Of a DNA stretch of 34,802 bases, positions 6,561-34,154 are shown one piece after another (within the stretch, counting starts at the first letter, position 1; every line of letters starts with the position of its first letter). Source of the stretch: Anaerolinea sp. (GTDB taxonomy: Bacteria; Chloroflexota; Anaerolineae; Anaerolineales; Villigracilaceae); contig DYPU01000006.1 in the NCBI GenBank assembly GCA_020719725.1, positions 1 to 34,802 of the forward strand. The letters are read 5' to 3'. The translations under genes and the position numbers were made by a program. The notes below the pieces were generated by a model. It was given only the letters and a program-made list of their open reading frames with translations, was not told the DNA's origin and searched no databases.

Positions 6561-6563
6561 AAA

Positions 6564-7551: not shown

Positions 7552-7600
7552 AAACCTGCGAGAGATTGTCCGAATATATATGACAACTCGCAGGTTTTTT
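7552..7600 (+). terminator. Rho-independent terminator after metF
   Basis: AAACCTGCGAG (7552-7562) pairs perfectly with CTCGCAGGTTT (7587-7597). An inner TTGTC/GACAA stem continues the helix, and T residues run on through 7600. This closes the metF transcript ahead of nifJ. The preceding bases (7528-7550) hold a short run of CCCAATAC-like units. Confidence 0.85.
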
Positions 7601-7630
7601 ATATGCAGAATATTACTATTCTGATTTAGC

Positions 7631-7659
7631 TTGCAGGACTAAACTTGTACGGATATTTG
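7631..7659 (+). promoter_or_regulatory. Possible nifJ promoter
   Basis: TTGCAG at 7631-7636 and TATTTG at 7654-7659 are separated by 17 bases, upstream of a 40-base leader and the strong site AAGGAG before ATG 7703. The -10 match is weak. The strong terminator just upstream makes a new promoter here necessary. Confidence 0.3.
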
Positions 7660-7702
7660 GAAATTCTTAGCTCTTATTCTCTTCTCTCAAGGAGTTTTTA
7701 CA

Positions 7703-10700
7703 ATGGCAAAACGAAAAATGATTACCATTGACGGCAACGAGGCCGCCGCCTCGATTGCTCACCGCGCCAGCGAAGTTATCGCCATTTACCCCATCACCCC
7801 CTCCTCGGGCATGGGCGAACTGTCTGATGAATGGTCGGCCAAGGGTAAAAAGAACATCTGGGGAACCGTCCCCCTGGTTGCCGAATTGCAATCTGAAGGC
7901 GGCGCAGCGGGTTCTGTGCATGGTGCTCTCCAAACCGGGGCTTTAACCACCACCTTCACTGCCTCGCAAGGCCTTTTATTGATGATTCCCAATATGTACA
8001 AAATCGCGGGCGAGCTAACCAGCACAGTCTTTCACATCGCCGCCCGCGCCATTGCAGCCCAGTCGCTTTCGATTTTTGGCGACCATCAGGATGTAATGGC
8101 CTGCCGTCAAACCGGCTGGGCCATGCTCAGCTCTGGCTCGGTGCAAGAAGCGCACGACATCGCGCTGATTGCGCACGCCACCACGCTGCGAACCCGCATC
8201 CCATTCCTGCATTTTTTTGATGGCTTCCGCACTTCGCACGAAGTTGCCAAAATTGAATATCTCGAAGATGACGATCTACGCGCCATGATCGACGATGACC
8301 TGGTGCGCGAACATCGCGCCCGCGCACTGACCCCCGACAAACCCGTTTTACGCGGCACCGCCATGAACCCGGATGTCTACTTTCAGGGCCGAGAAAGCGT
8401 CAACCAATACTACGAAGCCGTCCCCGGCGCAGTTCAGGCCGAAATGGATAAATTTGCCAAGCTGACCGGCCGTCAGTACAAACTGTTCGACTATGTCGGC
8501 CACCCCGCCGCCGAGCGCGTCATCGTGCTTATGGGTTCGGGCGGAGAAACTGTCGAAGCAACGGTCAAACACCTGGTCGAGCAAGGCGAAAAAGTCGGCG
8601 CAATCCGCATTCGCCTGTATCGTCCCTTCTCCATCGAATACTTTATCAAGGCCCTGCCCGCCAGCGTCAAAACCCTGGCAGTGCTCGACCGAACCAAAGA
8701 ACCCGGCTCGGCAGGCGAACCCCTCTATTTAGATATTGTCAATGCCGTTTCCGAAAGCGAAATGGCGATTAAAGTCTTCGGCGGGCGCTATGGCCTATCT
8801 TCTAAAGAATTCACCCCGGCCATGGTCAAAACCATCTTTGACGAAGCTGCCAAACCCCAGCCTAAAAAACACTTTACGATTGGTATCAAAGATGATGTCT
8901 CGAACACCAGTCTGGAGTACGATCCAACCTTCTCGGTGGAATACCCCGAAACGGTGCGCTGCCTGTTCTTTGGCCTGGGCGCCGATGGCACGGTAGGAGC
9001 CAACAAAAACTCCATCAAAATTATTGGTGAAGAAACTGAAAACAATGCTCAGGGCTACTTCGTATACGACTCGAAGAAATCTGGCTCGCTGACCATCTCG
9101 CACCTGCGTTTTGGCCCCAAACCCCTGCAAGCCCCCTACTTGATTTCCCCCAACACCGCCAACTTTGTGGCTTGCCACCAATTCAGCTTTTTGGAGCGCT
9201 TCGATGTGCTCAAATATGCCCAAAACGGAGCAACCTTCCTGATTAACAGCACCTTTGGCCCCGATCAAGTCTGGGATGAACTGCCCGTAGAAGTTCAACA
9301 GGTCATCATTGAGAAGAAACTAAAGTTCTACAATATCAACGCCTACGAAGTGGCCGAAAAAACCGGCATGGGAACCCGCATCAATACCATTATGCAGACC
9401 TGCTTCTTCGCCATCTCTGGCGTTCTGCCCCGCGAACAGGCCATCGCCGAAATCAAACACGCTATCGAAAAAACCTATGGCAAACGCGGCGAAGCTGTCG
9501 TGCGTAAAAACTTTGAAGCAGTAGACCAAACCCTGGCCCACCTGAGCGAAGTCAAAGTACCCGCCAGCGCCAGCAGTACCGTCAAAATGCGCAGCGCCGT
9601 CCCCGATGCCGCTCCCGATTTCGTCAAAAGCGTGCTCGGCCCGATGATCGTCTTTGAAGGAGATAATATCCCCGTCTCGGCCATGCCCATTGATGGAACT
9701 TTCCCAACCGGCACAACGCAATGGGAAAAACGCAACATCTCACTCGAAATTCCGGTTTGGGACCCCAACCTGTGCATCCAATGCGGCAAATGCGTCTTTG
9801 TCTGCCCGCACGCCGTCATCCGCCACAAGGTTTACGACAAGGCCGCCCTGGCCGAAGCGCCAGAAACCTTCAAAAGCATGGAATCCAAGTTCAAAGAATT
9901 CCCTGGCATGGCCTACAGCATTCAGGTTGCGCCCGAAGATTGCACCGGCTGCACCTTATGCGTCGAAGCCTGCCCCGCCAAAGACAAAACCCAGGTGGGC
10001 CGCAAAGCCATCAACATGGCCGCTCAGCCGCCCCTGCGCGAAACCGAAGCCGCCAACTGGGACTTCTTCCTTAACCTGCCAGAGGTTGACCGCACCGCCA
10101 TTAACCCCAACACCATCAAGAACTCACAATTGCTCCAACCGCTATTTGAATTCTCTGGCGCTTGCACCGGCTGCGGCGAAACACCCTACGTCAAACTCGT
10201 CTCACAGCTCTTCGGCGACCGGGCTGTCATCGCCAACGCCACCGGTTGCTCCTCCATTTATGGCGGCAACCTGCCCACCACCCCTTGGGCCAAAAACAAA
10301 GAGGGCCGCGGCCCAGCCTGGAGCAACTCACTCTTTGAAGACAACGCAGAATTTGGCCTGGGTATGCGCCTGACCATTGACAAACAAACCGAATATGCCC
10401 GCGAACTGCTACCGCACTTCACCCCCGAACTCGGCCAGGAACTAATCGACGGCCTGCTCAACGCCGACCAAAGCAACGAACTCGGCATCAAACAACAACG
10501 CGAGCGCGTCGCAGCCGTCAAAGAAAAACTCTCCGGCCTGAAAAACGACAGCAAAGCCAAAGACCTGATCTCACTGGCCGATATGCTCGTCAAAAAATCA
10601 GTCTGGATCATGGGCGGCGACGGCTGGGCCTACGATATTGGCTACGGCGGCCTCGACCATGTGATGGCCTCCGGGCGCAATGTCAACATCCTGGTACTCG

Positions 10701-11269
10701 ATACCGAAGTCTACTCGAACACCGGCGGCCAGGCCTCCAAATCCACCCCGCGCGGCGCAGTTGCCAAATTCGCCATGGCCGGAAAAGGCATCGCCAAGAA
10801 AGACCTCGGCCTAATCGCCATGTCCTACGGCTACGTCTACGTCGCCCGCGTTGCCATGGGCGCCAGCGACCAACAAACCCTAAAAGCCATCCTCGAAGCC
10901 GAAGCCTTCAACGGCCCCTCCATCGTCATCGCCTACAGCCACTGCATCGCCCACGGCATCGACATGGCCAAAGGCCTCGACCAACAAAAACTGGCCGTCC
11001 AATCTGGTCATTGGCCGCTCTTCCGCTACAACCCCGAAATGGCCCTCAACGGCCAAAACCCGCTCCAAATCGACTCCAAAGAACCGAGCATCCCACTCGA
11101 ACAATACATCTACAACGAAACCCGCTACCGGATGTTGACCCAAAGCGACGAAGAACGCGCCGAAATGTTGCTCAAATCTGCCCAGGCCGATGTAAAAAAC
11201 CGTTGGCAATATTATCAACAAATGGCCGCCATGAATTTCGCCAAAGTCAGCGACAAACCAGAAAGCTAA
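7703..11269 (+). CDS. nifJ: Pyruvate:ferredoxin (flavodoxin) oxidoreductase, single-chain
   Basis: This 1188-aa protein has the full domain order of a homodimeric NifJ-type enzyme. The N-terminal pyrimidine-binding domain shows IDGNEAAASIAHRASEV and AIYPITPSS. Next come the CoA-binding and gamma-type domains (FFGLGADGTVGANKNSIKII). Two ferredoxin clusters follow: CIQCGKCVFVCP near residue 691 and CTGCTLCVEACP near 749. The C-terminal TPP-binding domain has CTGCGETPYVKL near 820 and GGDGWAYDIGYGGLDHV. It oxidatively decarboxylates pyruvate to acetyl-CoA and reduces ferredoxin or flavodoxin, which fits anaerobic metabolism. Start and strong Shine-Dalgarno (AAGGAG, 7689-7694 region) agree. Length is typical of the family. 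Confidence 0.97.
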   Translation: MAKRKMITIDGNEAAASIAHRASEVIAIYPITPSSGMGELSDEWSAKGKKNIWGTVPLVAELQSEGGAAGSVHGALQTGALTTTFTASQGLLLMIPNMYKIAGELTSTVFHIAARAIAAQSLSIFGDHQDVMACRQTGWAMLSSGSVQEAHDIALIAHATTLRTRIPFLHFFDGFRTSHEVAKIEYLEDDDLRAMIDDDLVREHRARALTPDKPVLRGTAMNPDVYFQGRESVNQYYEAVPGAVQAEMDKFAKLTGRQYKLFDYVGHPAAERVIVLMGSGGETVEATVKHLVEQGEKVGAIRIRLYRPFSIEYFIKALPASVKTLAVLDRTKEPGSAGEPLYLDIVNAVSESEMAIKVFGGRYGLSSKEFTPAMVKTIFDEAAKPQPKKHFTIGIKDDVSNTSLEYDPTFSVEYPETVRCLFFGLGADGTVGANKNSIKIIGEETENNAQGYFVYDSKKSGSLTISHLRFGPKPLQAPYLISPNTANFVACHQFSFLERFDVLKYAQNGATFLINSTFGPDQVWDELPVEVQQVIIEKKLKFYNINAYEVAEKTGMGTRINTIMQTCFFAISGVLPREQAIAEIKHAIEKTYGKRGEAVVRKNFEAVDQTLAHLSEVKVPASASSTVKMRSAVPDAAPDFVKSVLGPMIVFEGDNIPVSAMPIDGTFPTGTTQWEKRNISLEIPVWDPNLCIQCGKCVFVCPHAVIRHKVYDKAALAEAPETFKSMESKFKEFPGMAYSIQVAPEDCTGCTLCVEACPAKDKTQVGRKAINMAAQPPLRETEAANWDFFLNLPEVDRTAINPNTIKNSQLLQPLFEFSGACTGCGETPYVKLVSQLFGDRAVIANATGCSSIYGGNLPTTPWAKNKEGRGPAWSNSLFEDNAEFGLGMRLTIDKQTEYARELLPHFTPELGQELIDGLLNADQSNELGIKQQRERVAAVKEKLSGLKNDSKAKDLISLADMLVKKSVWIMGGDGWAYDIGYGGLDHVMASGRNVNILVLDTEVYSNTGGQASKSTPRGAVAKFAMAGKGIAKKDLGLIAMSYGYVYVARVAMGASDQQTLKAILEAEAFNGPSIVIAYSHCIAHGIDMAKGLDQQKLAVQSGHWPLFRYNPEMALNGQNPLQIDSKEPSIPLEQYIYNETRYRMLTQSDEERAEMLLKSAQADVKNRWQYYQQMAAMNFAKVSDKPES

Positions 11270-18207: not shown

Positions 18208-18236
18208 TTGTCAAATATAACCACATCATCTACAAT
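18208..18236 (+). promoter_or_regulatory. Promoter of the zur-like gene
   Basis: TTGTCA (18208-18213) and TACAAT (18231-18236) are spaced by 17 bases, a near-consensus promoter. The predicted start near 18243 leaves a leader of about 11 bases before ATG 18254, so the mRNA has almost no leader and no ribosome site. Confidence 0.75.
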
Positions 18237-18252
18237 TGAAAAACGTTTTCAA
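18234..18252. promoter_or_regulatory. Candidate Zur/Fur operator
   Basis: ATTGAAAA and TTTTCAAT are exact inverted repeats separated by ACG. The dyad overlaps the -10 element and the start of transcription and ends just before the ATG, the ideal place for autorepression by the Fur-family protein encoded here. Confidence 0.6.
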
Positions 18253-18253
18253 T

Positions 18254-18697
18254 ATGAGCGAAGAAACCCAAACATCCCTGTGTGACCAGTGGCTTGCCAA
18301 TCTCGCTGCCAGCGGCTACCGCGTAACGGCGCCACGCCGCGCGATTGTCGAACTTATGGCAAGCAGCACCCACGCCCTGGAACCGCTCGCAATTTACGAT
18401 CAGGGCCGCAAAGATTATCCCGGCCTGGGCCTGGTGACGGTCTACCGCACCCTCGAAAAACTCGAAGAACTGGGCCTCGTCCAGCGCGTACATCATCATC
18501 AGGGCTGCCACATGTACCTGCGCGCCGCGCACGGGCACGAGCACCTGGTCCTGTGTACCCGCTGCGGTCACGCCGAATACTTTAGCGGTGACGACATTGG
18601 TGGGCTAATTAACAAAGTGACTCAAAGCACCGGCTTTGAAATCCGCGAACACTGGCTACAACTGTTTGGGTTGTGCCCCGCTTGTAAAAATCAATAA
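18254..18697 (+). CDS. zur: Fur-family regulator, probably Zur
   Basis: ATG 18254 is preferred over the in-frame TTG at 18236, because the TTG overlaps the -10 box and would lie before the transcription start. The 147-aa protein has the Fur winged helix (GYRVTAPRRAIVELMASS, then LGLVTVYRTLEKLEELGLVQ) and the metal-binding hinge (VHHHQGCHMYLRAAHGHEHLV). Two CxxC pairs of the structural zinc site follow (VLCTRCGHAEYF and GLCPACKNQ). Fur, Zur and PerR cannot be told apart by motif alone, but the adjacent znuA, znuC and znuB genes point to zinc. It should repress zinc uptake when zinc is plentiful. Confidence 0.85.
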   Translation: MSEETQTSLCDQWLANLAASGYRVTAPRRAIVELMASSTHALEPLAIYDQGRKDYPGLGLVTVYRTLEKLEELGLVQRVHHHQGCHMYLRAAHGHEHLVLCTRCGHAEYFSGDDIGGLINKVTQSTGFEIREHWLQLFGLCPACKNQ

Positions 18698-18751: not shown

Positions 18752-20167
18752 ATGAAAAAGATTATCATTACCATTACGACGTTTTTCACTTTGATGACGC
18801 TGGCCCTGGCAGCCTGCGCCCCTCAGCCTGAATCCAGTCCCAGCAACGTAAACCAGGCTGAGGGTCTGAGAGTTCTCGCGGCAAACAGCTTTTTAGCAGA
18901 TATTGCTCAAAATGTGGCGGGCGAGCGGGTCACGGTAGACTCTCTCATCCCGATTGGTATCGACCCGCACGCCTTTGAACCAACCCCGCAGGATGTTGCC
19001 AAAATTGCCGAAAGCCAGGTGCTAATTGTCAATGGCGCCGGTTTTGAAGAATGGCTGGCAGAAACTATCGCCAACGCAGGCGGAGAACGCCTGGTACTAG
19101 AGGCTTCTGCCGGTCTGACAATGCGTGAGCCAACTGCCAGCGAATCCAGCCACGAGCACGAAGCCGAAACTGCGGCAGATGACCACTCAGTTGAATCACA
19201 CTCGGCAATGGTTTGCGAACAATTGGACGGAAAAACAGCCGAAGAAGAGATTGCGAGCGGGGCCGACGCTGCCAGCGCAGTTGAACTGCACAGCGCGGAA
19301 GAACATGCCGCCGCTGAACATGCCCACGAACGCGAAATTTTAACCCTGAAGCTGAACCCGCAAGCAGATGGCACTTTTGCCGGTTTTGTGCTATTCGATG
19401 CTGAAGCCGAGGAGGGCTACGCCTTCACCGCCGGGTCAGGCACTATTAAAGTAAGCAATGCTCAAGGCGAAGCCTTGGAAGCAGCCCAAACTTTAGCGCT
19501 GGAATGCGGCGGAATGAGCCAGGGTGTAATTTTCAAGCTGGCCGCCGGAGAGTATACCGTTGAATTTAGCGGATCTGCCAACGCAACCAGCCTGTTTAGC
19601 GCCGGACCGGTTCACAGTGAGCACGCCCACAGCCACGAAGGCGATCCACATTTTTGGCTTGACCCAAATCAGGTCATGATGTATGTTGAAAATATCCGCG
19701 CTGGTCTGAGCCAGGCCGACCCAGCCGGGGCCGAAACCTATGCCAAAAATGCCGAGACCTATTTGGCCGAGCTAAAAACGCTAGACGGTTGGATGCGCGA
19801 ACAGGTTGAACAAATTCCCGCTGAACGGCGCATTCTGGTGACAGACCACGACACCCTGGGCTACTTCGCCGATCAGTATGGCTTCAGCGTGATTGGAGCC
19901 ATCATCCCCAGTTTTAGTACCGGGGCCAGCCCCAGCGCCCAGGAGCTAGCCCAGCTAATTGACCAAATTAAAACCACCGGCGCACCTGCTATCTTTTTGG
20001 ATGTGGCTACAAACCCCAAACTAGCTGAACAAATTGCCAGCGAAACCGGCGTTAAAGTTGTAGCCGATTTATACACACACTCTGTGACCGAAGCAAGCGG
20101 CCCGGCTCCCAGCTATGTCGAAATGATGCGCCAAAACACAACCAAGATTGTGGATGCCTTGAAGTAA
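18752..20167 (+). CDS. znuA: Zinc ABC transporter substrate-binding lipoprotein with an inserted domain
   Basis: The 471-aa protein has a lipoprotein signal ending LALAAC (Cys22) and the cluster A-I metal-binding fold. Zinc ligands are expected at His73 in IGIDPHAFEPTP, His299 in DPHFWLDPNQVM and the His in TDHDTLGYFADQYG, with a late acid in IFLDVATNP. Usual ZnuA proteins are about 300-330 residues. The extra length lies between the first two ligands (about residues 127-296), where the His-rich loop normally sits. It holds two His/Glu-rich stretches flanking a segment at about 193-275 that looks like a beta-sandwich (ILTLKLNPQADG to AAGEYTVEFSGSAN). The protein captures zinc at the outer face of the membrane and hands it to ZnuB. 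RBS is AAGGAG at 18741. Confidence 0.92.
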   Translation: MKKIIITITTFFTLMTLALAACAPQPESSPSNVNQAEGLRVLAANSFLADIAQNVAGERVTVDSLIPIGIDPHAFEPTPQDVAKIAESQVLIVNGAGFEEWLAETIANAGGERLVLEASAGLTMREPTASESSHEHEAETAADDHSVESHSAMVCEQLDGKTAEEEIASGADAASAVELHSAEEHAAAEHAHEREILTLKLNPQADGTFAGFVLFDAEAEEGYAFTAGSGTIKVSNAQGEALEAAQTLALECGGMSQGVIFKLAAGEYTVEFSGSANATSLFSAGPVHSEHAHSHEGDPHFWLDPNQVMMYVENIRAGLSQADPAGAETYAKNAETYLAELKTLDGWMREQVEQIPAERRILVTDHDTLGYFADQYGFSVIGAIIPSFSTGASPSAQELAQLIDQIKTTGAPAIFLDVATNPKLAEQIASETGVKVVADLYTHSVTEASGPAPSYVEMMRQNTTKIVDALK

Positions 20168-20236
20168 AATAGATGGGATGTTTGCGAGTCTGATAAATCG
20201 GAAAATCTGGCTCACAAGGCGCTAAAAACCAACTCT

Positions 20237-20313
20237 GGACACGAATTTCGTGGATGAAACGGATTTTCGCTATTTTTAAGAAAAATCCGTGATATTTTGC
20301 ATCATTCGTGTCC
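20237..20313. repeat. 77-bp imperfect palindromic intergenic repeat
   Basis: GGACACGAAT (20237-20246) pairs with ATTCGTGTCC (20304-20313). Inside, ACGGATTTT pairs with AAAATCCGT and GATG with CATC. I recognise the words as those of a dispersed intergenic repeat seen in several bacterial phyla. It fills the middle of the 285-base gap between znuA and znuC, where no gene is seen. It could fold as a long hairpin and separate expression of the two. Confidence 0.6.
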
Positions 20314-20452
20314 TAAAAGGTTTCACCCAAGTTGGGCGCTAAACTCAAGCAAAAAAAGTCAACTGAAAAATACGCTATGCTAACGGTCCAAGCTAAAACT
20401 CTTTTCACCAGAATAGCAAGAATCGGCTTGTCCGTCACAAAAACAATGTGAG

Positions 20453-21274
20453 ATGCCTGTGAGTCAATCCCTTGAAACCAAACAACCCGCCCGGCTGGAG
20501 ATGGAAAACGTCAGCGCTGGCTACGACGGGCAAATGATTTTACAAAACTTATCAATCCAGGTTCAGCACGGCGCGCAAGTGGCCGTGGTCGGCCCCAACG
20601 GAGCCGGAAAATCGACCCTGTTCAAAGCCCTGGTCGGCCTGCTGCCTCTACGCAGTGGGCGGATTTTTATTCACGGCGAACCGCTCGGCCACCATAAAGA
20701 TTGCGTGGCGTATGTGCCACAACGCGAAGATGTCGATTGGCGTTTTCCCGTCAGCGTAGCCGAAGTAGTGTTAATGGGCCGCTTTGCCCGCCTGGGCTGG
20801 ACCCGCCGCCCCGACAAAAACGACCATGCCGCCGTGGCCCAAGCCCTGGAACAAATGAACATAACCAACCTTGCCAAACAGCCCATCGGAGACCTTTCAG
20901 GCGGCCAGCAGCAGCGCGTTTTTCTGGCGCGCGCCCTGGCCCAGGAACCGCACATCCTGCTAATGGATGAACCATTTACCGGCGTAGACGCTTCGACGCA
21001 GGAGGCCACCCTAAACCTGCTCGACCGGCTTAAAAGCCAGGGCGTCACCGTCATGGTTTCAACTCACGATCTGAACATGGCCGCCCAACGCTTTGAAACC
21101 GTGCTGCTGTTGAACAAAGGCCTGGTAGCCTATGGCCCACCGGCCAGCGCCCTCTCAGCCGCCTCCATCCAACGCGCCTTTGGCGGACAAGTGCTCTTCT
21201 TAAATGACGTGGCCGCCATCGTCGATGATTGCTGCCCCGGCGAAGACCACCACCACCCCACGGAGATTGCATGA
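20453..21274 (+). CDS. znuC: Zinc/manganese ABC transporter ATP-binding protein
   Basis: The 273-aa protein has Walker A VVGPNGAGKSTLFKALVG, a Q-loop in VAYVPQREDVDW (which includes the PQR form common in metal importers), the signature DLSGGQQQRVFLARAL, Walker B HILLMDEPFTGVD and the switch STHDLN. It energises the ZnuB channel. The C-terminus is rich in Asp, Cys and His (VDDCCPGEDHHHPTE), as is frequent in zinc-handling proteins. The stop overlaps the znuB start by 4 bases (ATGA). No clear ribosome site precedes ATG 20453, and a promoter was not identified in the repeat-containing gap upstream. Confidence 0.93.
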   Translation: MPVSQSLETKQPARLEMENVSAGYDGQMILQNLSIQVQHGAQVAVVGPNGAGKSTLFKALVGLLPLRSGRIFIHGEPLGHHKDCVAYVPQREDVDWRFPVSVAEVVLMGRFARLGWTRRPDKNDHAAVAQALEQMNITNLAKQPIGDLSGGQQQRVFLARALAQEPHILLMDEPFTGVDASTQEATLNLLDRLKSQGVTVMVSTHDLNMAAQRFETVLLLNKGLVAYGPPASALSAASIQRAFGGQVLFLNDVAAIVDDCCPGEDHHHPTEIA

Positions 21275-22098
21275 ACTGGCTGCTCGATCCCCTCACTTAT
21301 GTTTTCATGCAACGCGGCCTGGTCGCCTCGGTCATTGTCGGGATGGTCTGCGCCGTCATTGGTAGCTACGTCGTCCTGCGCGGCATGGCCTTTTTGGGTG
21401 ACGCGCTGGCCCACGCCATTCTGCCAGGCGTGGCAATCGCCTATATCACAGGAGGCAACCTGACGATAGGCGCATTGGTGGCGGCGGTCATAGTGGCCCT
21501 GCTGATTGGCCTTTTCTCGCGCCAGGGAACCATCCGCGAAGATACCGCCATCGGAATTCTGTTCGCGGCAGCGCTGGCGCTGGGCGTGGCCCTCATCAGC
21601 ACCATCCGCAGTTCAGCCCAAGACCTGAGTCACATTTTATTTGGCAATATTTTGGGGGTTTCTGCCACCGATTTATGGATGGTAGGGATTCTGGGACTAC
21701 TGGTTTTAACCATTATCACCTGGTTCTACCGACCCTTTTTGGTAATCTCCTTCGACCCAACCCTGGCCGCCACCCTGCGCTGGCCAGGGGAATTTTTCCG
21801 CATCCTATTGCTGGTTCTGCTCGCGCTGACAGTAGTCATCTCGCTTCAAACGGTTGGAATCGGGCTGGTAGCCGCCATGTTGGTGACACCCGCCGCCACT
21901 GCCTACCTGCTAACCCGCCGCCTTTCAACGATGATGTTCCTTTCGGCAGGAATTGGAGCGGTTTCGAGTATCATCGGCTTATACATCAGCTACTACGCCA
22001 GCATAGCTTCGGGGGCAGTGGTGGTATTGGTGGCAACCGGGTTCTTCTTGCTGGCTTTTCTCTTTGCCCCCCAACGCGGCTTACTCTGGAAAAAATAA
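21271..22098 (+). CDS. znuB: Zinc/manganese ABC transporter permease
   Basis: ATG 21271, overlapping the znuC stop, is chosen over the longer frame from 21229, whose extra residues are read from another gene's His-codon tract. The 275-aa ABC-3 family permease has seven or eight membrane helices. Typical segments are YVVLRGMAFLGDALAHAILPGVA, REDTAIGILFAAALALGVAL and SLQTVGIGLVAAMLVTPAATAYLL. The GDALAHAILPG loop is a hallmark of the family. It forms the channel through which zinc delivered by ZnuA crosses the membrane. Confidence 0.93.
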   Translation: MNWLLDPLTYVFMQRGLVASVIVGMVCAVIGSYVVLRGMAFLGDALAHAILPGVAIAYITGGNLTIGALVAAVIVALLIGLFSRQGTIREDTAIGILFAAALALGVALISTIRSSAQDLSHILFGNILGVSATDLWMVGILGLLVLTIITWFYRPFLVISFDPTLAATLRWPGEFFRILLLVLLALTVVISLQTVGIGLVAAMLVTPAATAYLLTRRLSTMMFLSAGIGAVSSIIGLYISYYASIASGAVVVLVATGFFLLAFLFAPQRGLLWKK

Positions 22099-24373: not shown

Positions 24374-25012
24374 ATGCCCAGCCCCTACCTGATTCCCTCC
24401 GAAGAAACCCGCCGCGAGCTGATCGTGATCAACTCGCGCTTTATTGCGAATCTCGCACCGGTTGCCAGCACGGACGAGGCCCGAGCCTTTATCAAACGCA
24501 TTCGCGCTGAATTCCCCGCTGCCAGCCACAACGTCCCAGCCTATATTCTCGGCGGGGGCAACACCGTCACCGAATATTTTTCAGATGACGGTGAACCTTC
24601 TGGGACGGCAGGCCGCCCGGCACTGACGGTTTTGCGCGGCTCTGGCCTGGGAGATGTGGTCGTGGTTGTCACCCGCTACTTTGGCGGGACCCTGCTCGGG
24701 ACTGGGGGCCTGGTCAAAGCCTATACCGAGGCAACCCAGGCTGTCGTTCAGGCAGTGCCGCGCGCACAGCGCATCCCGGTACAAATCGCCATGACAGCCA
24801 TCCCCTATCATTTATTTGAACGGGTTAAGTTATTGACTACACGCCAAAAAGGGGCGATTCTTGATGAAACATTTGGCGCAGATATAACCCTGACCCTGCG
24901 TTTCCCGGTTGAAAGTTTTCAGGGATTTCAAACTGGCCTGCGCGAACTTTCGGCAGGCCAGGTACAGGCGGAAATTATCGAAACGAGTGAAATGCTGGTT
25001 CCGGTCAGTTAA
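24374..25012 (+). CDS. yigZ: YigZ/IMPACT family protein
   Basis: The 212-aa product has the UPF0029/IMPACT N-domain: INSRFIANLAPVASTDEARAF, then SHNVPAYILGGG, the conserved SDDGEPSGTAGRPALTVL and VVVTRYFGGTLLGTGGLVKAY. A ferredoxin-like C-domain with ITLTLRFPVES follows. Bacterial YigZ is a widespread protein of uncertain role, thought to bind nucleic acid or ribosomes. The start at ATG 24374 lacks an evident ribosome site. Its stop overlaps by a few bases with the stop of the convergent gene on the minus strand, and no terminator lies between them. Confidence 0.92.
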   Translation: MPSPYLIPSEETRRELIVINSRFIANLAPVASTDEARAFIKRIRAEFPAASHNVPAYILGGGNTVTEYFSDDGEPSGTAGRPALTVLRGSGLGDVVVVVTRYFGGTLLGTGGLVKAYTEATQAVVQAVPRAQRIPVQIAMTAIPYHLFERVKLLTTRQKGAILDETFGADITLTLRFPVESFQGFQTGLRELSAGQVQAEIIETSEMLVPVS

Positions 25013-26094
25013 CTCCCGGCCCAAACTTGCCCCGCAGGAACAATGGTTTTATCTGGCACATCCGCGTAAACGACCGCCCCATTGCCGATTCGCACTCCAT
25101 CCCCAATTTTGATTCCAATTGCAGTGGTAACGCCCATCCCTACCAGGCTGCGCGCACCGACATGAACATGCCCGGCCAGCATTGCGCCAGGGGCGATATG
25201 GGTATATTCGCCGATTTCGCAATCGTGTGAAACAATCGCGCCAGTATTGACCATGCAGCGCGGATGTAAAACCACAGAAGAACCAACGTACGCATTCGCA
25301 AAAACCTGCACGCCCTCGCCCAGAAGCGTGCTTGGCTCAACCGTTGCGCGTGGATGCGCCAGGGATGGCAGGTCAAACCCGGCAGAAGACAGTCTCTCGA
25401 ACAGACGAACACGCACGGCGATGTCCAAAATTCCACCGACGCCGTTGGCCGCCAGCGCTAAACCTTTTGCACGCAAAGCCGGGAGCAATTCACGCCCGCC
25501 CAAAACAGGGATGCCCAGCACCGTTTTTCCCTTCAAGGCCGGGTTATCGTCCAGAATCCCGGCAATTGGATGTGCGCCAATGGCCTGCGCCATCTCCATG
25601 ACCGCCTTGGCATGACCGCCAGCCCCGTAGATCAGCAGGTGGCCGGAGTCAAAATCTGGCAGTGCGATTGGGAACAGAGACGCGGCAATTTCACGAATGG
25701 CCGCTTCGGTCAGCAGCCGGTCGGTCGGCAGGGAATCGAGCTCGAGACCCAGTTCTTCGGCCAGGGCGCGGGCGGGGTTGGTGATGCGCAAGCCACCGGG
25801 AGTGGAAACAGCCGGTTTAACGGTATCCTGCGGGCGGGGCGGGAGTGCTTGGTCGGCGGTGTCAGTCAGGTAAGCCAGCAAATCCCCCACAGAAAGGGTA
25901 TCGCCTTCAGCGGCAACCATCCGCACAAAGCCAGCGGCGGGCGCTTCAACATCGCTGGCGGCTTTGGTGGTTTCAATCGTAAAAAGGATTGCGCCAGGGT
26001 TAACTTGCTGACCGTCTTTGACATGCACATCGACCAGGCGGGCTTCGGGTTCGTTGGCGTTTAGCAGGGGGACGATGATGGGAATTTGGGACAT
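25009..26094 (-). CDS. Lipoyl domain - E3-binding domain - NeuD/PglD-type acyltransferase fusion
   Basis: The 361-aa protein combines three modules. Residues 1-78 form a lipoyl domain with Lys44 in FTIETTKAASDVEAPAAG. Residues about 102-138 match the peripheral subunit (E3)-binding domain of 2-oxoacid dehydrogenase E2 chains (ITNPARALAEELGLELDSL). From about 150, where an E2 catalytic domain would begin, stands a NeuD/PglD-type acyltransferase. It has the Rossmann-like start LLIYGAGGHAKAVMEMAQ and then a left-handed beta-helix (about 245-355) with hexapeptide turns and the catalytic histidine motif IVSHDCEIGEYTHIAPGA (His290). The HxxxDG motif of normal E2 is absent. The E1 genes lie on the same strand upstream. 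The likely role is transfer of an acyl group from the lipoyl arm to an amino sugar or other acceptor (inference). Confidence 0.88.
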   Translation of the reverse strand: MSQIPIIVPLLNANEPEARLVDVHVKDGQQVNPGAILFTIETTKAASDVEAPAAGFVRMVAAEGDTLSVGDLLAYLTDTADQALPPRPQDTVKPAVSTPGGLRITNPARALAEELGLELDSLPTDRLLTEAAIREIAASLFPIALPDFDSGHLLIYGAGGHAKAVMEMAQAIGAHPIAGILDDNPALKGKTVLGIPVLGGRELLPALRAKGLALAANGVGGILDIAVRVRLFERLSSAGFDLPSLAHPRATVEPSTLLGEGVQVFANAYVGSSVVLHPRCMVNTGAIVSHDCEIGEYTHIAPGAMLAGHVHVGARSLVGMGVTTAIGIKIGDGVRIGNGAVVYADVPDKTIVPAGQVWAGS

Positions 26095-26107
26095 GAGAAT
26101 CCTATTC

Positions 26108-26138
26108 TTAACAATTTTGTTGGGTTTTGGTCTATAAT
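26108..26138 (+). promoter_or_regulatory. Promoter of the DUF4013-like gene in a 73-base divergent spacer
   Basis: TATAAT at 26133-26138 is a consensus -10. TTAACA at 26108-26113 is a candidate -35, with a long 19-base spacer. On the other strand TTGTCA (reading down from 26155) is a candidate for the fusion gene, with a shorter spacer to TATAGA. Both genes must be driven from this small interval, so their promoters overlap. Confidence 0.45.
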
Positions 26139-26167
26139 TCTAGTATCTATTTGACAAGGAGAATAAT

Positions 26168-26839
26168 ATGGATTTTGGACGTGCTTTTTCTTATGTTTTT
26201 GAAGACTCGGATTGGCTAAAGAAGGTTGGCATTGCGGCGCTAGTCTTTCTAATTCCGTTGGTTGGGCCAATTACGGTGTTGGGATGGAGTCTTGCAATCA
26301 CCAAACGTGTGATTGAAGGCCAAACGACCGATTTGCTGCCAGCGTGGGACAATTTTAGCGACCACATGACGCTGGGCTTTAAGGTGTTTGTGGTTGGGTT
26401 TGCTTACAGCCTGCCGGTGACGATCTCTTCAACTTGCAGCAATGTGATTCCATTGCTGGAGCAAAACGTCAGCGGAGACACCGCCGATCTGCTGATGGGG
26501 CTTGGCTGGATTGTTGCGATTTGTTTTGGCTGCTTGACGATGATTTATAGCATCTTTTTGGGCCTGGCTTTACCTGCCGCTTATGCAAAAGTGGCCGTAA
26601 CCGGCGAAATTGGAGCGGGTTTCCGTTTTGCTGATATTGCGGCGCTGGTGAAGGCTGCTCCTGGAGCGTATGTGTTAACCCTGGTGGGCAGCATTGCCGC
26701 TGGTTTGGTGGCCTCGCTCGGTTTAATCGCTTGCTTTGTGGGTATCTTTTTCACCGCTGCGCTGTCGTATGCTATTATGGGCCATTTTTACGGCCAGGCC
26801 TACAACGCGGCCACGGCAGTCCTTGAGCCAAGCCTCTAA
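26168..26839 (+). CDS. DUF4013-like integral membrane protein
   Basis: The 223-aa protein starts MDFGRAFSYVFEDSDWLKK, the opening typical of DUF4013 proteins, and has about five membrane segments in two similar halves. Residues such as IPLVGPITVLGWSLAITKRV and ALPAAYAKVAVTGEIGAGF fit this family, whose function is not known. The ribosome site AAGGAG at 26156 is strong. It lies on the + strand between two minus-strand genes that seem functionally linked (E1-beta and the lipoyl fusion), so it is either an insertion into their operon or a regulated partner. It is followed by a bidirectional terminator. Confidence 0.8.
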   Translation: MDFGRAFSYVFEDSDWLKKVGIAALVFLIPLVGPITVLGWSLAITKRVIEGQTTDLLPAWDNFSDHMTLGFKVFVVGFAYSLPVTISSTCSNVIPLLEQNVSGDTADLLMGLGWIVAICFGCLTMIYSIFLGLALPAAYAKVAVTGEIGAGFRFADIAALVKAAPGAYVLTLVGSIAAGLVASLGLIACFVGIFFTAALSYAIMGHFYGQAYNAATAVLEPSL

Positions 26840-26851
26840 TTCAATTTTTAG

Positions 26852-26899
26852 TGAAACCAGCTCGCCAGGTTTTTACAAAAACCTGGCGAGCTGGTTTCA
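26852..26899. terminator. Bidirectional hairpin between convergent genes
   Basis: TGAAACCAGCTCGCCAGG with TTTTT (26852-26874) is the exact reverse complement of 26877-26899, with only AC between. T-runs occur at the inner end of each arm. It lies 12 bases after the DUF4013 stop, and its right end contains the TGA stop of the E1-beta gene (26897-26899). It should end transcription from both sides. Confidence 0.85.
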
Positions 26900-27883
26900 T
26901 TGCAATAATTTCAAAGCGGACTGGACGATTTTTGCGACGGAGGGCAGAATCTCATCTTCGAGGGACTTTGCGTTGGCGATGGGCAGGTCGAGCGCCCCCA
27001 AGCGCTGAACGCGGATACCCGGAACCTGCTCAGCGCTGCGAGCAGCCACCTCCGCGCCCCAGCCGAGGGTTTGCGGGCCTTCTTCGAGGGTCAGCAGATG
27101 CCCGGTGCGGCGCAGCGAGTCGAAAAGCGGATTCAGTTCAAAAGGGCTGAGTTGGCTGAACAAGACGATCTCGCTGAAAATCTCGTACTCGTACATCAGT
27201 TCGCGGGCGGCTTCACGCGCCAGTTCGAAGTTATAGCCGTAGGTGGCGATGGTAATTTGGGATTGGTAATCGGTTTTTAAGGTAAATGTGGGGTATGGGC
27301 CGCCAGAAGAAGAGACTTCCCAATCGAGCAAATCCTTCGCTTCAAGGATGGGGCGGGTGTAGAGCAGTTTGTGTTCGACAAAGAGAACAGGATCATCGTC
27401 AGCGATGGCCGAGAGCAGCAAATCGGCGGGGCTGCCGAGGCTGTTGGGGGCGACCGCTTTCAGGCCGGGCGCGCCGAGCAGGTGTTTTTCAAGCGACTGG
27501 GAATGGGTTGGGCCGTAGCCGCGCCGTCCGCCCATCGGCAGGCGCAGAACGAGCGGGACGCGCACCTGGTCGTTGTACATCCAACGGAATTTGGCGGCGT
27601 GATTGATGAGTTGGTCGGCCATCAGGGTCACAAAATCGCCAAACATGACTTCGGCCACCGGGCGCAACCCGCGCAGGGCCATGCCGTTGCAGATGCCCAT
27701 AATGGCCGCCTCAGAGATGGGCGTGGTCAGAACGCGCTCCGGGAAGCGGGTCGAAAGTCCGCGGGTGACTTTGAACGCGCCGCCATACGGGTCGAGGATG
27801 TCTTCGCCGAGAACGTAGACGCGTGGGTCGGTTTCGAGGGCAGTGTGCAGGGCGGAATTGAGTGATTCGAGAATTGTAGACAT
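26897..27883 (-). CDS. 2-oxoacid dehydrogenase E1 component, beta subunit
   Basis: The 328-aa protein matches the beta subunit of heterotetrameric pyruvate, acetoin or branched-chain 2-oxoacid dehydrogenases. It begins ILESLNSALHTALETDPRV and continues with YVLGEDILDPYGGAFKVT, TPISEAAIMGICNGMALRG, the segment AEVMFGDFVTLMADQLINHAAKF, GYGPTHSQSLEKHLLGAPGL and a transketolase C-terminal domain with LLTLEEGPQTLGWGAEVAA. With the alpha subunit it forms the TPP site and transfers the acyl group to a lipoyl arm. The 2-oxoacid cannot be told from sequence. It is 120 bases after the alpha gene, separated by heptamer repeats. No E3 gene is in the window. Confidence 0.92.
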   Translation of the reverse strand: MSTILESLNSALHTALETDPRVYVLGEDILDPYGGAFKVTRGLSTRFPERVLTTPISEAAIMGICNGMALRGLRPVAEVMFGDFVTLMADQLINHAAKFRWMYNDQVRVPLVLRLPMGGRRGYGPTHSQSLEKHLLGAPGLKAVAPNSLGSPADLLLSAIADDDPVLFVEHKLLYTRPILEAKDLLDWEVSSSGGPYPTFTLKTDYQSQITIATYGYNFELAREAARELMYEYEIFSEIVLFSQLSPFELNPLFDSLRRTGHLLTLEEGPQTLGWGAEVAARSAEQVPGIRVQRLGALDLPIANAKSLEDEILPSVAKIVQSALKLLQ

Positions 27884-27959
27884 TTTTTATAATTCAGAAT
27901 GCAGGATGATGAATGATGAATTGGGGTTGGGAATGCTGTGGGTGGGATGAAAAATGCTT

Positions 27960-28019
27960 ATTCTGCATTCTTCATTTTGCATTCTTCGTTCTTCCCGCAT
28001 TCTTCATTCTCCATTCAGC
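27960..28019. repeat. Heptamer tandem repeat, consensus ATTCTTC
   Basis: Units in order are ATTCTGC, ATTCTTC, ATTTTGC, ATTCTTC, GTTCTTC, then CCGC, then ATTCTTC, ATTCTCC and ATTCAGC. Related units on the opposite strand (GAATGCAG, GATGAATGATGAAT) occur at 27896-27921, so the spacer is also a loose inverted repeat. The tandem runs into the last codons of the E1-alpha gene and separates it from E1-beta. Confidence 0.75.
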
Positions 28020-28897
28020 AGTGGAAAGGGGTCGTTGGCGGCGCGAGTGAAGGCGTAGTCGATGAGGGCATCAATTTCGGTTTCGAGGGAGGCCCGTTGA
28101 GCGGAATCGATTCGCGGGGCGTGGATGGTGAGCGGGTCGTGTGCGGCCCGGATTTTTGCAACCTGCTCCGGGTCGCGCGGGTCGTCGCCTTTGCTGTGGG
28201 CAGAGAAGCGGTAGGTGTGCAGGATACAGGCTGCGGGGCCTCTGCTCCGAACGTGGTCAACTGCCTCGCGCGCAATCGGCAAAAGGGTCAGGACATCGCT
28301 CGAAGCGGCTTCAAAAGTCTCGATTCCAAAAGCCTGAAAACGAGCGGGGATGGAACCTGCGATGCCAAGTTCATTTGGAGTGGTTTGGGCGTAGCGGTTG
28401 TTTTCGACAACATACAGAACGGGCAAGCTCCATAATGCGGCGATGTTCAGGCTTTCGTAGAGCACACCCTGCCCAAGGGTGCCATCGCCGATGAAGACAA
28501 CCGCAATTTTGCCGGTTTTTTGGGCTTTTTCGGCCAGGGCCATGCCAGTGGCGACGGGAACAATGCCGCCCTGGATGCCGTTGGAGTAGAAGTTGCGCCA
28601 GTGGATGTGCTGGCTGCCACCGCGCCCGCCGACGAGACCGGTGGCGCGTCCCATCAGTTCGGCGGCCAGGCGGTAGGGGTCGCCGCCGTAGGCCAAAAAG
28701 TGACCGTGGCAACGATGGTTGCTAAAAACTAAATCACCTGGATCGAGAACTGAAAAGAGGGCGGCGGCATCGGCTTCTTGGCCGATGTAGGCGTGGGTGG
28801 TGCCAAATAGTTTGCCGGTGGAGAATTCGGCCAGGGCGCGTTCTTCAAAACAGCGAATGAGGTACAAGATGCGGTATAGGTCGAGGTCGGTGGTCAT
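28004..28897 (-). CDS. 2-oxoacid dehydrogenase E1 component, alpha subunit
   Basis: I take ATG 28897 instead of the TTG at 28918, because TATAAT at 28907-28912 lies between them and would be the -10 box; transcription would begin about 3 bases before the ATG, making the message nearly leaderless. The 297-aa protein has LYRILYLIRCFEERALAEF, THAYIGQEADAAALFSVL, the loop HRCHGHFLAYGGDPYRL, GRGGSQHIHW, and the TPP/Mg motif GDGTLGQGVLYESLNIAALW to VVENN (Gly137 to Asn167). It is slightly shorter at the C-terminus than pyruvate dehydrogenase alpha chains and closest in layout to acetoin-type or small E1 alpha proteins. Its final codons are built from heptamer repeat units. Confidence 0.9.
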   Translation of the reverse strand: MTTDLDLYRILYLIRCFEERALAEFSTGKLFGTTHAYIGQEADAAALFSVLDPGDLVFSNHRCHGHFLAYGGDPYRLAAELMGRATGLVGGRGGSQHIHWRNFYSNGIQGGIVPVATGMALAEKAQKTGKIAVVFIGDGTLGQGVLYESLNIAALWSLPVLYVVENNRYAQTTPNELGIAGSIPARFQAFGIETFEAASSDVLTLLPIAREAVDHVRSRGPAACILHTYRFSAHSKGDDPRDPEQVAKIRAAHDPLTIHAPRIDSAQRASLETEIDALIDYAFTRAANDPFPLLNGE

Positions 28898-29006
28898 AGC
28901 TGGATGATTATAATGCAAGTATGAAGGTTAATTTTCTAATGGAAAGTGCGCCATTTTTTGCATTACAGGCTGCTTTGCGCGCAATGAGAAATTGCTCTTT
29001 AAAAGG

Positions 29007-31333: not shown

Positions 31334-32051
31334 AAGAAAAATCTCCAGCATAAGCGCAATCTTCCCCGCCTATAACGACGGCGGAACCATTCCGAGCATG
31401 GCCCTGACGGCTCTGCTCGCTTTGCACAACCTGACCGACGATTTTGAAATCATCATTATCAATGATGGCAGCCGCGACTACACCGCCCAGGTACTTGATG
31501 AATTAGCCAAACGCATTCCAGAATTACACATCATCCACCATGCGACCAACCAGGGCTACGGCGCAACGCTACGCCAAGGCTTCGCCGCCGCCCGCAAAGA
31601 ATGGATTTTCTACACCGACGGCGACGCCCAATACAACCCGCTCGAACTGGAAACGCTGGTCGAGGCGCTGCGCCCTGAAATTGACATCGTCAATGGCTAC
31701 AAAATCAGCCGCAACGACCCTTGGCACCGCAAAATTATCGGACGCATCTACCACCACCTCACCCGGCTGGCCTTCGGCTTTCGCCTGCGCGATGTAGATT
31801 GTGACTTTCGTCTTCTACGGCGTTCTGTCTTCGAGCGCGTCACGCTAACCAGCCAAGACGGCGCAATTTGTGTCGAAATGGTTAAAAAATTTCAAGATGC
31901 CGGCTTCCAATTCGCAGAAGTCCCTGTTCACCATTACCATCGCCAATATGGCAAATCACAATTTTTCAATTGGCGGCCCATCTTGCGCTCGCTTTGGCAT
32001 CTGGCACAGCTTTGGTGGAAACTTATCATCCAAAAAGAGCGCCAAAGATGA
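31326..32051 (+). CDS. Glycosyltransferase family 2
   Basis: The 241-aa GT-A enzyme has ISAIFPAYNDGGTIPSMAL, the UDP-binding strand FEIIIINDGSRDYTAQVLDE, then NQGYGATLRQGFAAARKEW and the DxD-like motif FYTDGDAQYNP. The acceptor part carries RDVDCDFRLLRRSVFERVTL and VHHYHRQYGKSQFF. It resembles dolichol/polyprenyl-phosphate sugar synthases, which would supply a lipid-linked donor for the GT39-like enzyme upstream. There is no C-terminal membrane domain. It starts within the stop of the methyltransferase remnant and overlaps the epimerase start by 4 bases. Confidence 0.92.
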   Translation: MNKRKISSISAIFPAYNDGGTIPSMALTALLALHNLTDDFEIIIINDGSRDYTAQVLDELAKRIPELHIIHHATNQGYGATLRQGFAAARKEWIFYTDGDAQYNPLELETLVEALRPEIDIVNGYKISRNDPWHRKIIGRIYHHLTRLAFGFRLRDVDCDFRLLRRSVFERVTLTSQDGAICVEMVKKFQDAGFQFAEVPVHHYHRQYGKSQFFNWRPILRSLWHLAQLWWKLIIQKERQR

Positions 32052-33043
32052 ATTTTGCGACAACTTTTTTGGGGAAACAAGCGCTAATCACCGGGGGATT
32101 GGGCTTTATCGGCAGCAACTTGGCCCGGCGTCTGCTCGCGCTGGGCGCAAATGTCACTTTGGTAGACACCCTGCACCCCGAATATGGCGGTAACCCCTAT
32201 AACCTTGACGGAATCGCCAGCCAGGTTCAGTTCATCCAGGCCGATCAGGGCGATAAAAAACAAATTACCCCGCTTCTGGCGCGCCAAAATTACATCTTCA
32301 ATCTGGCCGGGCAAGTCAGCCACACTGCCAGCATGGAAAACCCCCAACACGACCTGCAAACAAACGCATCCAGCCACCTGGCGCTGGTTGAAATGTGCCG
32401 CCAATATAACCCACAGGTCAAAATCATCTACAGCGGCACCCGCCAGGTTTACGGCATTCCCAACTATCTACCGGTAGATGAAAAACACCCGGTTGCCCCC
32501 ATCGACTATAACGGCATCAGCAAACTAGCCGGAGAGTCCTATCATCTGGTGGCTCAACGCGTCTACCAGCTACGCGTCACCAGTCTGCGCCTGACCAACG
32601 TCTACGGCCCACGCATGTATCTGCGAGACGCCAGCAAAAACTTCATCGGCGATTGGTTCAGGCGGCTGTGCCAGGGCCAGCCCTTACACATTTTCGGCGA
32701 TGGCAGCCAACTCCGCGACCTGAATTACATCGATGACGCGCTCAACGCGCTCCTACTGGCGGCGGCTAATCCGCTCAGTGACGGAAAAATCTACAATCTC
32801 GGCGGAAAAAAGCCCATCAGCCTGCTCAACCTGGCAAAATTGATGATCAAAATCAACGGCAGCGGCCACTATCACCTGACACCCTTTCCGCCCGAACGCA
32901 AACGCATCGACATCGGCGATTACTACGGAGACTATACAAAAATTTATCGGGAACTCGGTTGGCAGCCCAACACCAGCTTGTCCGAAGGCCTTCGGCAAAC
33001 CCTGGACTATTGCCGCGAACACAAATCGCACGACTACAGCTAA
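32048..33043 (+). CDS. NAD-dependent epimerase/dehydratase (extended SDR)
   Basis: ATG 32048 overlaps the preceding stop and is preferred over the longer frame from 31970, which only reads the GT2 gene out of phase. The 331-aa protein has a Rossmann start QALITGGLGFIGSNLARRLL, the strand NYIFNLAGQVSH, KIIYSGTRQVYG with Ser129 and the C-terminal substrate domain with LRLTNVYGPRM. At the active site DYNGISKLAGE, the residue four before Lys159 is Asn155, not the usual catalytic Tyr; a Tyr is one position earlier. A conserved subfamily with D-x-N-G-I-(S/N)-K is known to me, so the enzyme may still be active in a modified way. It probably makes a nucleotide sugar for the adjacent aminotransferase. 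Confidence 0.9.
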   Translation: MNFATTFLGKQALITGGLGFIGSNLARRLLALGANVTLVDTLHPEYGGNPYNLDGIASQVQFIQADQGDKKQITPLLARQNYIFNLAGQVSHTASMENPQHDLQTNASSHLALVEMCRQYNPQVKIIYSGTRQVYGIPNYLPVDEKHPVAPIDYNGISKLAGESYHLVAQRVYQLRVTSLRLTNVYGPRMYLRDASKNFIGDWFRRLCQGQPLHIFGDGSQLRDLNYIDDALNALLLAAANPLSDGKIYNLGGKKPISLLNLAKLMIKINGSGHYHLTPFPPERKRIDIGDYYGDYTKIYRELGWQPNTSLSEGLRQTLDYCREHKSHDYS

Positions 33044-33044
33044 C

Positions 33045-34154
33045 GTGGATATTCTCCCCACCATAAACCTGAAAGCCCAATATGAAAGCCTGCGCCCTGA
33101 GGTGGAAGCCGCCATCGCGCGCGTTTTTGCGCGTGGAAATTTTGTACTGGGCGAAGAAACCCAGGCCTTCGAGCAGGAATTTGCCGACTTCTGCCAGGTT
33201 TCCCACGCCATTGGAGTTGATTCGGGCACTTCGGCCCTACACCTGGCCCTGCGTGCCTGCGGCATCGGCCCCGGCGACGAAGTCATCAGCGTCGCCCATA
33301 CCGCCGTCGCCAGCATCGCCGCCATCGAAATGAGCGGCGCTCGCCCAATTTTGGTGGATATTGACCCGCAACAAATGACCCTCGACCCGCACCAACTCGA
33401 ACAAGCCCTCAGCCCGCGCAGCCGCGCCATCCTACCTGTTCATCTCTACGGCTGCCCGGCCAATCTAACCGAAATTGTGGCTTTTGCCCGCGCCCATGGG
33501 CTATTTGTCATCGAAGATTGCGCCCAAGCCCACGGCGCGACCTGGCAAGACCAACCGGTCGGCGGTTGGGGCGATCTGGCCGCCTTCAGCTTTTACCCCA
33601 CCAAAAACCTGGGAGCCTATGGCGATGGCGGCGCAATCGTGACAAACAACCTGGCCCTGGCCGAAAAAACGCGCTTATTGCGCCAATATGGCTGGCAGGA
33701 GCGCTACATCAGCGCCAGCAAAGGCTTCAACAGCCGCCTCGACGAGCTGCAAGCGGCTATTTTGCGCGTCAAACTGCGCCACTTACCGGCCTGGAACAAA
33801 AAACGCCAACAGCAAGCAGCCCGCTATGACAGCCTGCTTGCCACAAGCGGGCTGATTTTGCCGGTTCAGCCCGCCGCCGCCAGCCATGTCTACCATCAAT
33901 ACGTCATCCGCCACACAGCCCGCGCCGCCCTGCGTGACTTTCTGGCGCAACACGGCATCCAAAGCCAGATCCATTATCCCGTTCCCATCCACCTCCAACC
34001 AGCCTATCACGACCTGGGGTACAGCCCCGGCAGCCTGCCACACAGCGAACAGGCCGCCCATCAAGTGCTCAGCCTGCCACTCTATCCCGAACTCTCGGAA
34101 GAAGCTCTGCAAAAAGTTTGCCAGACTCTTTTGGATTTCTTAGCAGACAACTGA
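33045..34154 (+). CDS. DegT/DnrJ/EryC1/StrS-family sugar aminotransferase
   Basis: A GTG start at 33045, 1 base after the epimerase stop, gives a 369-aa PLP enzyme. Signatures include LPTINLKAQYESLRPEVEAA, NFVLGEETQAFEQEFADF, GVDSGTSALHLALRACGI, VFVIEDCAQAHGA-like FVIEDCAQAHGATW and the PLP-lysine in FSFYPTKNLGAYGDGG. This family adds an amino group to a keto-sugar nucleotide, typically for amino sugars of surface glycans. Its presence next to a NeuD/PglD-type acyltransferase is notable, because those act on such amino sugars. The last codons and the stop form one arm of a 25-bp hairpin stem. Confidence 0.93.
   Translation: MDILPTINLKAQYESLRPEVEAAIARVFARGNFVLGEETQAFEQEFADFCQVSHAIGVDSGTSALHLALRACGIGPGDEVISVAHTAVASIAAIEMSGARPILVDIDPQQMTLDPHQLEQALSPRSRAILPVHLYGCPANLTEIVAFARAHGLFVIEDCAQAHGATWQDQPVGGWGDLAAFSFYPTKNLGAYGDGGAIVTNNLALAEKTRLLRQYGWQERYISASKGFNSRLDELQAAILRVKLRHLPAWNKKRQQQAARYDSLLATSGLILPVQPAAASHVYHQYVIRHTARAALRDFLAQHGIQSQIHYPVPIHLQPAYHDLGYSPGSLPHSEQAAHQVLSLPLYPELSEEALQKVCQTLLDFLADN

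Follow-up and report, generated by a model that had tools for sequence, protein, structure and literature searches.

The lipoyl arm of the known 2-oxo acid dehydrogenase complexes passes its acyl group to CoA; LpxA and LpxD are beta-helix acyltransferases that transfer to a UDP-sugar an acyl group delivered by a carrier protein. To our knowledge, every NeuD/PglD enzyme that has been studied biochemically uses acetyl-CoA. Here we analyse a stretch of DNA from Anaerolinea sp. (contig DYPU01000006.1; the window is this whole stretch of 34,802 nt) that carries genes for E1-alpha, E1-beta and a 361-aa protein in which a lipoyl domain, a peripheral-subunit-binding (PSBD)-like domain and a NeuD/PglD-type acyltransferase are fused. 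We think that this trio of genes probably encodes an E1-fed, lipoyl-carried acyltransferase that acts on an amino sugar. For the more specific version of this reading, a CoA-independent sugar N-acyltransferase with a dedicated E1 and a lipoyl arm in cis, in which a NeuD-type beta-helix transfers directly to a nucleoside diphosphate (NDP)-amino sugar an acyl group that is possibly not acetyl, and which evolved more than once, we put the chances at about even. We found no description of an architecture of lipoyl domain plus NeuD, bacillosamine or sugar acyltransferase in the openly licensed literature. The trio, together with a fourth gene that lies inside it, is as follows.

28004..28918, minus strand: E1-alpha, the thiamine diphosphate (ThDP)-dependent 2-oxoacid dehydrogenase alpha subunit, 304 aa (Pfam E1_dh, 6.7e-50)
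26897..27883, minus strand: E1-beta, 328 aa (Pfam Transket_pyr, 4.5e-31, and Transketolase_C, 3.2e-14)
26168..26839, plus strand: DUF4013 membrane protein, between E1-beta and the fusion (Pfam DUF4013, 2.7e-24)
25009..26094, minus strand: lipoyl, PSBD-like and NeuD/PglD fusion protein, 361 aa (Pfam, NCBIfam; about 55 Chloroflexota loci with the same architecture)

Set beside PDH, BCKDH and acetoin dehydrogenase, which have an alpha2beta2 E1, this system shares intact E1 ThDP sites, lipoyl and PSBD-like domains and the order E1-alpha, E1-beta, carrier, but it has a sugar acyltransferase beta-helix instead of the catalytic CoA acyltransferase domain of E2, no linked E3 and a shorter PSBD loop. 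With NeuD, PglD, PerB and VioB (TIGR03570) the fusion has in common a PglD_N domain with an Asp-Asp pair, a left-handed beta-helix, a catalytic His and, often, a DegT aminotransferase and a PglC-type transferase as neighbours; it differs in its additional N-terminal lipoyl and PSBD-like domains, in its E1 partners, in the absence of a GxPA[KR] motif from the main clade of fusions and in its donor, which is probably acyl-lipoyl and not acetyl-CoA. LpxA and LpxD draw on a phosphopantetheinyl acyl carrier protein (ACP) in trans, whereas the fusion would have its carrier, a lipoyl domain, in cis, with E1 as the loading enzyme. Homologues of PDH E1-alpha and E1-beta also belong to the sugar pathways of paulomycin (Plm8/Plm9) and avilamycin (PMC4802897), where there is no lipoyl carrier and a C-C bond to a keto sugar is made, whereas we predict acyl transfer for the system described here.

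The presence of three minus-strand genes for E1-alpha, E1-beta and a 361-aa fusion had been claimed by a first-pass annotation of the window, and this holds: the open reading frames are found where they were claimed, and their Pfam and NCBIfam domains agree. The E1-alpha reading frame reaches 28918, with the ATG at 28897 as its probable start. Because the opposite-strand DUF4013 gene splits the trio, there is no single uninterrupted operon in the window; a DUF4013 gene stands at the same place in seven relatives, and in most relatives, unlike in the window, the trio genes are adjacent. Other arrangements were seen as well. E1-alpha and E1-beta form a single chain of 649-712 aa at four loci (L054:7233-9182, L058:682-2820, L062:7098-9176 and L084:6609-8636), and at two a histidine kinase-type gene is inserted between them (L070:6984-8966 and L103:4381-6285). 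Upstream of the trio, about ten loci carry malate dehydrogenase, citrate synthase and a methylglyoxal-synthase-like gene (L069:3069-5380 and similar).

We searched 400 Chloroflexota genomes and scanned 84,980 genomes, and obtained about 55 fusion-bearing loci, almost all of them in Anaerolineae and relatives. It had been asked beforehand whether homologues of the fusion might stand apart from E1 genes, and this is not the case: in 49 of 55 loci the fusion has both E1 genes at a distance of no more than 5 kb, and the remaining six include two short contigs (L072, L080) that still show E1-beta. Beside lipoyl-less NeuDs of the same phylum, on the other hand, E1 genes occur in 0 of 23 loci (Fisher p=1.4e-14), a difference that rules out chance juxtaposition. 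The fusion and its E1 pair are a conserved system in Chloroflexota. A mobile plasmid cassette was also considered and rejected, since the fusion is on none of 72,556 plasmids (tblastn, megablast). Among 398 Bacillota genomes, a set that held no positive control, the fusion was not found at E<=1e-33.

The domains of the fusion and the residues that matter for its function are laid out as follows.

25855..26094, minus strand: lipoyl domain, residues 1-80 (Pfam Biotin_lipoyl, 5e-11, over residues 18-76; loop IETTKAA, Lys44)
25963-25965, minus strand: codon of Lys44, in the lipoylation-type loop IETTKAA
25672..25794, minus strand: PSBD (E3_binding-like) domain, residues 101-141 (HHalign; GTGxxGR loop shortened)
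25012..25638, minus strand: NeuD/PglD-type acyltransferase domain, residues 153-361 (NCBIfam NeuD_NnaD, TIGR03570; PglD_N; Hexapep)
25225-25227, minus strand: codon of the catalytic His290, which aligns with PerB His141

The lipoyl domain with Lys44 is borne out by the Pfam match and by its relatives: a non-lipoylatable Lys44 loop in most of them was another possibility raised beforehand, and the Lys is kept in 51 of 51 fusion homologues. In the AlphaFold model this domain has a per-residue confidence (pLDDT) mostly above 90, and its Foldseek matches include the lipoyl domains 1ghj and 3crk. A biotin carrier was rejected on the loop, which reads ETTKA, ETTKS or ETDKV and not MKM.

The next domain is more divergent. 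Pfam E3_binding (PF02817) has no match in the fusion at E<1, and a genome-wide search with that profile gave only two matches, both at places other than the fusion. When the linker of the fusion family is compared with canonical PSBDs of the same phylum, HHalign gives a probability of 96% (E 2.6e-9), against at most 8.4% for 20 column-shuffled controls; the family motif is LRITxPAxxLAxxxGLDLxxLP...LVTExxVR, and the AlphaFold model places two helices here, at 106-114 and 130-140. Because of this gap between the profile match and the shuffles, the linker appears to be a real PSBD relative with a shortened GTGxxGR loop, and binding of E1 or E3 is a prediction from that homology. The E3-binding domain proposed at about 102-138 thus stands as a matter of homology; it fails at the level of a Pfam match, and its GTGxxGR loop is cut short.

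The remaining part of the chain scores 188.6 bits with NeuD_NnaD (TIGR03570; curated cut-off 160.8) and matches PglD_N (3.1e-11, residues 153-235) and Hexapep (9.4e-16) in Pfam, and its Foldseek matches are PerB, PglB, VioB and PglD. His290 is kept in 50 of 51 homologues, the chain 4eaa (H141N) has Asn in the alignment column that His290 shares with PerB His141, and the nucleotide-site pair Asp182-Asp183 is invariant in 47 homologues. Neither the E2 catalytic domain (2-oxoacid_dh, PF00198) nor HxxxDG is found in the fusion by Pfam or NCBIfam, and the two places with PF00198 in genome G000 are both on other contigs (C68, C17). The earlier description of the chain, with a PglD/NeuD-type beta-helix (His290) where E2 would have its catalytic domain and HxxxDG, is confirmed by the missing 2-oxoacid_dh match and the NeuD_NnaD score above cut-off.

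The E1 partners have intact active sites. The closest solved chains to E1-beta are PDH and BCKDH E1-beta, and its active-site Glu58 and His127 are invariant among 55 family members; in E1-alpha the GDG...ENN ThDP motif and the His residues are invariant among 52. Compared with PDH, BCKDH and acetoin dehydrogenase, the window E1-alpha has Thr for a Phe of the active-site region and His for Tyr. T40, H68 and Q103 do not vary within the family, whereas most canonical E1s carry Phe, Tyr and Met at these positions, a hint that the 2-oxo acid pocket may be different or wider.

Losses within the family tie the E1 pair to the lipoyl domain. Three proteins, from genomes G104, G176 and G216, are nested in the fusion clade of the NeuD tree; the lipoyl part is gone in G104 and G176, and G216 retains a remnant whose Lys motif is lost (LISGTEEH). 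Family-type E1 is in none of the three genomes, where the best identity is 35-36% (canonical E1) or less, and LipA over cut-off is absent in G176 and G104. The clearest case is the following pair of loci.

L041 (G216) 6042-10503 versus L051 6446-11549: natural deletion of the E1 pair, with a degenerate lipoyl domain on the NeuD gene (synteny)

The flanks in G216 are syntenic with those of L049, L051 and L063 (SDR, 3-methyladenine glycosylase, fusion, bactofilin), and precisely the two E1 genes are absent. In these three genomes the lipoyl part or its Lys is gone, and so is family-type E1; we conclude that E1, lipoyl Lys and fusion appear and disappear as a unit. The topology of the NeuD tree requires at least two origins, so that the fusion architecture probably arose at least twice, in the main clade and in the second group formed by L044 and L078; in the E1-alpha tree, which has long branches, a single origin of the two main E1 groups appears in 14% of bootstraps. 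Perhaps there was a third origin in the divergent group L183-L185, where long branches advise caution. These three loci (G763, G634 and G736) encode very divergent lipoyl-PSBD-NeuD proteins (27% identity) with a tail that has no GxPA[KR]; two of the three loci have E1 genes upstream.

What the E1 and the arm would need from the rest of the cell is present. E3 (lipoamide dehydrogenase) is encoded in 50 of 50 genomes, in 48 over cut-off, and in G000 it is on contig C17, unlinked to the trio; LipA is over cut-off in 44 of 50. A shared E3 and lipoylation are therefore available, and the earlier suggestion that the arm is reoxidised by an E3 from outside the window agrees with a lipoamide dehydrogenase encoded elsewhere in the genome. 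Genome G158 has two LipA genes with identical scores (C2:1025503-1026345 and C1:106806-107648), one of them at a distance of about 20 kb from the trio. In 47 of 50 genomes there is a canonical E2 with an E1 of its own, so that a stand-in for a missing canonical E2 is ruled out for most of them. The window also holds its own route from pyruvate to acetyl-CoA.

7703-11266: pyruvate:ferredoxin oxidoreductase (PFOR), 1188 aa

Since most genomes have canonical E2 and the window has PFOR, the E1-fusion system is not the cell's only source of acetyl-CoA.

The mechanism that we propose includes steps that we infer, namely complex formation, direct CoA-free transfer and the identities of the 2-oxo acid and the acceptor. 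The alpha2beta2 E1 would decarboxylate a 2-oxo acid with ThDP and reductively acylate the lipoyl group on Lys44, while the PSBD-like domain would dock E1, the shared E3 or both. The swinging arm would then bring its acyl-dihydrolipoyl thioester to the NeuD/PglD beta-helix of the same chain, which would act as a trimer. The acceptor would be a nucleotide-activated amino sugar supplied by a PseC/LegC/DegT aminotransferase, and His290 would deprotonate its amine. The resulting NDP-amino sugar, now N-acylated, would be destined for a surface glycan, and E3 encoded elsewhere would re-oxidise the dihydrolipoyl arm.

The choice of an amino sugar as acceptor draws on the gene neighbourhoods of the family. 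A PseC/LegC-like aminotransferase lies downstream in 19 loci, all in the sister clade of the window subclade, with a gap of at most 60 bp in 15 of the 19 (four of them 4-bp overlaps), and a short PglC/WcaJ-type initiating sugar transferase is found in 21 loci. At the distant locus L044 the order is a UDP-GlcNAc-3-dehydrogenase-like gene, fusion, E1-alpha, E1-beta and DegT; G302 has an intact set of E1-alpha, E1-beta and DegT, with the fusion on another contig. By analogy, the layout resembles that of bacillosamine and other amino-sugar pathways, except that the acetyltransferase step has been replaced. In the window itself the candidates are two genes.

31970..33043, plus strand: NAD-dependent epimerase/dehydratase, nucleotide sugar candidate, dTDP-glucose 4,6-dehydratase-like (Epimerase, 2.9e-47); not operon-linked
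33045..34154, plus strand: DegT/DnrJ aminotransferase, candidate amino-sugar supplier (DegT_DnrJ_EryC1, 1.3e-117); not operon-linked

The window DegT has 50% identity to the DegT that follows E1-alpha and E1-beta in L044. The first-pass annotation had these neighbours supplying the sugar; the genes are indeed present, but for the window alone the link is weak, since they lie about 4-8 kb from the trio (31970-34154) on the other strand, and we do not count them as the same operon. Acyl transfer to an amino sugar, as that annotation had proposed, is backed by the family gene order, the invariant Asp pair and the His, and is left short by the window subclade, in whose 17 fusions no aminotransferase adjoins the trio.

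This last observation is one of several that weigh against our reading. Together with the third fusion group, L183-L185, which has no aminotransferase nearby either, it would suit a fusion that acylates a non-sugar amine or alcohol (a protein, lipid or metabolite) and for which the glycan-gene context is secondary; we regard this as very unlikely, given the conserved nucleotide-sugar site of PglD_N and the recurrence of aminotransferase and initiating sugar transferase in the sister clade. About ten loci, mostly of the window subclade, have malate dehydrogenase and citrate synthase genes nearby, as might be expected of a variant 2-oxoacid dehydrogenase in which the beta-helix takes over from the catalytic domain of E2 and transfers the acyl group of the lipoyl arm to CoA for central metabolism. 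NeuD folds do bind CoA in known structures (4ea7, 4m99, 2vhe), and the second fusion group, L044/L078, keeps the GxPA[KR] tail (GVPAK). We nevertheless think that such an acyl-CoA-making variant is unlikely: canonical E2 with E1, and PFOR in the window, already supply acetyl-CoA, the nucleotide-site Asp pair is invariant, a sugar aminotransferase operon occurs in 19 loci, and the tail is gone in all main-clade fusions. Two further points count against the amino-sugar acyltransferase that we favour. The beta-helix is modelled at low confidence in the AlphaFold monomer (pLDDT about 50-65), where PglD_N is confident, and in the fusion of L073 (G423) Lys44 is kept, Gln replaces His290 and the genome has no family-type E1; a decaying copy and a changed function are the candidate readings for that protein.

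The tail bears on the donor. In Pcryo_0637, a relative of PglD, a conserved proline near the C-terminus goes from trans to cis upon CoA binding (PMC8040287), and we take this proline to be that of the C-terminal GxPA[KR] motif. The motif is present in 18 of 18 unrelated lipoyl-less NeuDs and in 0 of 49 main-clade fusions, which close instead on AGxxW or a close variant (VPAGQVWAGS in the window). Its loss fits a donor other than free CoA; it is no proof of CoA independence, because L044 and L078 retain the motif and the lipoyl-less proteins of G104, G176 and G216, which have no lipoyl donor, also lack it. One could therefore imagine that the NeuD domain uses ordinary acyl-CoA on an amino sugar, and that E1 and the lipoyl domain only make more acyl groups available on the spot, CoA being a transient intermediate passed on within the complex. 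The clade does include lipoyl-less members, and the biochemically studied NeuD/PglD enzymes known to us use acetyl-CoA (PMC8040287, structures); but the fusion has no E2 catalytic domain to load CoA, the tail is lost, and the E1 genes are co-lost with the lipoyl Lys, which points to the arm itself as donor, so that we hold this to be improbable, if anything slightly more so than the acyl-CoA-making variant. The sugar-gene context is also similar to that of Plm8/Plm9, an E1-like pair that acts on deoxysugars in paulomycin biosynthesis (PMC4802897), and E1-alpha and E1-beta might give a keto sugar a branch of two carbons (acyl or ketol), in the manner of the paulomycin, avilamycin and kosinostatin pathways, with the lipoyl domain incidental. 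To this we give the least credence of all, since Plm8/Plm9-type pairs need no lipoyl carrier while here Lys44 is kept in all 51 fusion homologues and the presence of E1 follows it, and since the partner is an N-acyltransferase adjoining an aminotransferase and not a 4-keto-sugar branch.

Elsewhere in the window, 18752-22098 holds a gene set of the zinc-uptake type, with a ZnuA-like binding protein, an ABC ATPase and a membrane permease; ahead of it, a short open reading frame at 18236-18697 is a Fur-type regulator by appearance.

If our reading is true, acyl-lipoyl would join acyl-CoA and acyl-ACP as a third kind of acyl carrier in the acylation of glycans. Modification of the glycan would be coupled to the 2-oxo acid and NAD+ status of the cell, and the E1-fusion system would provide a modular means of placing acyl groups derived from 2-oxo acids on amino sugars.

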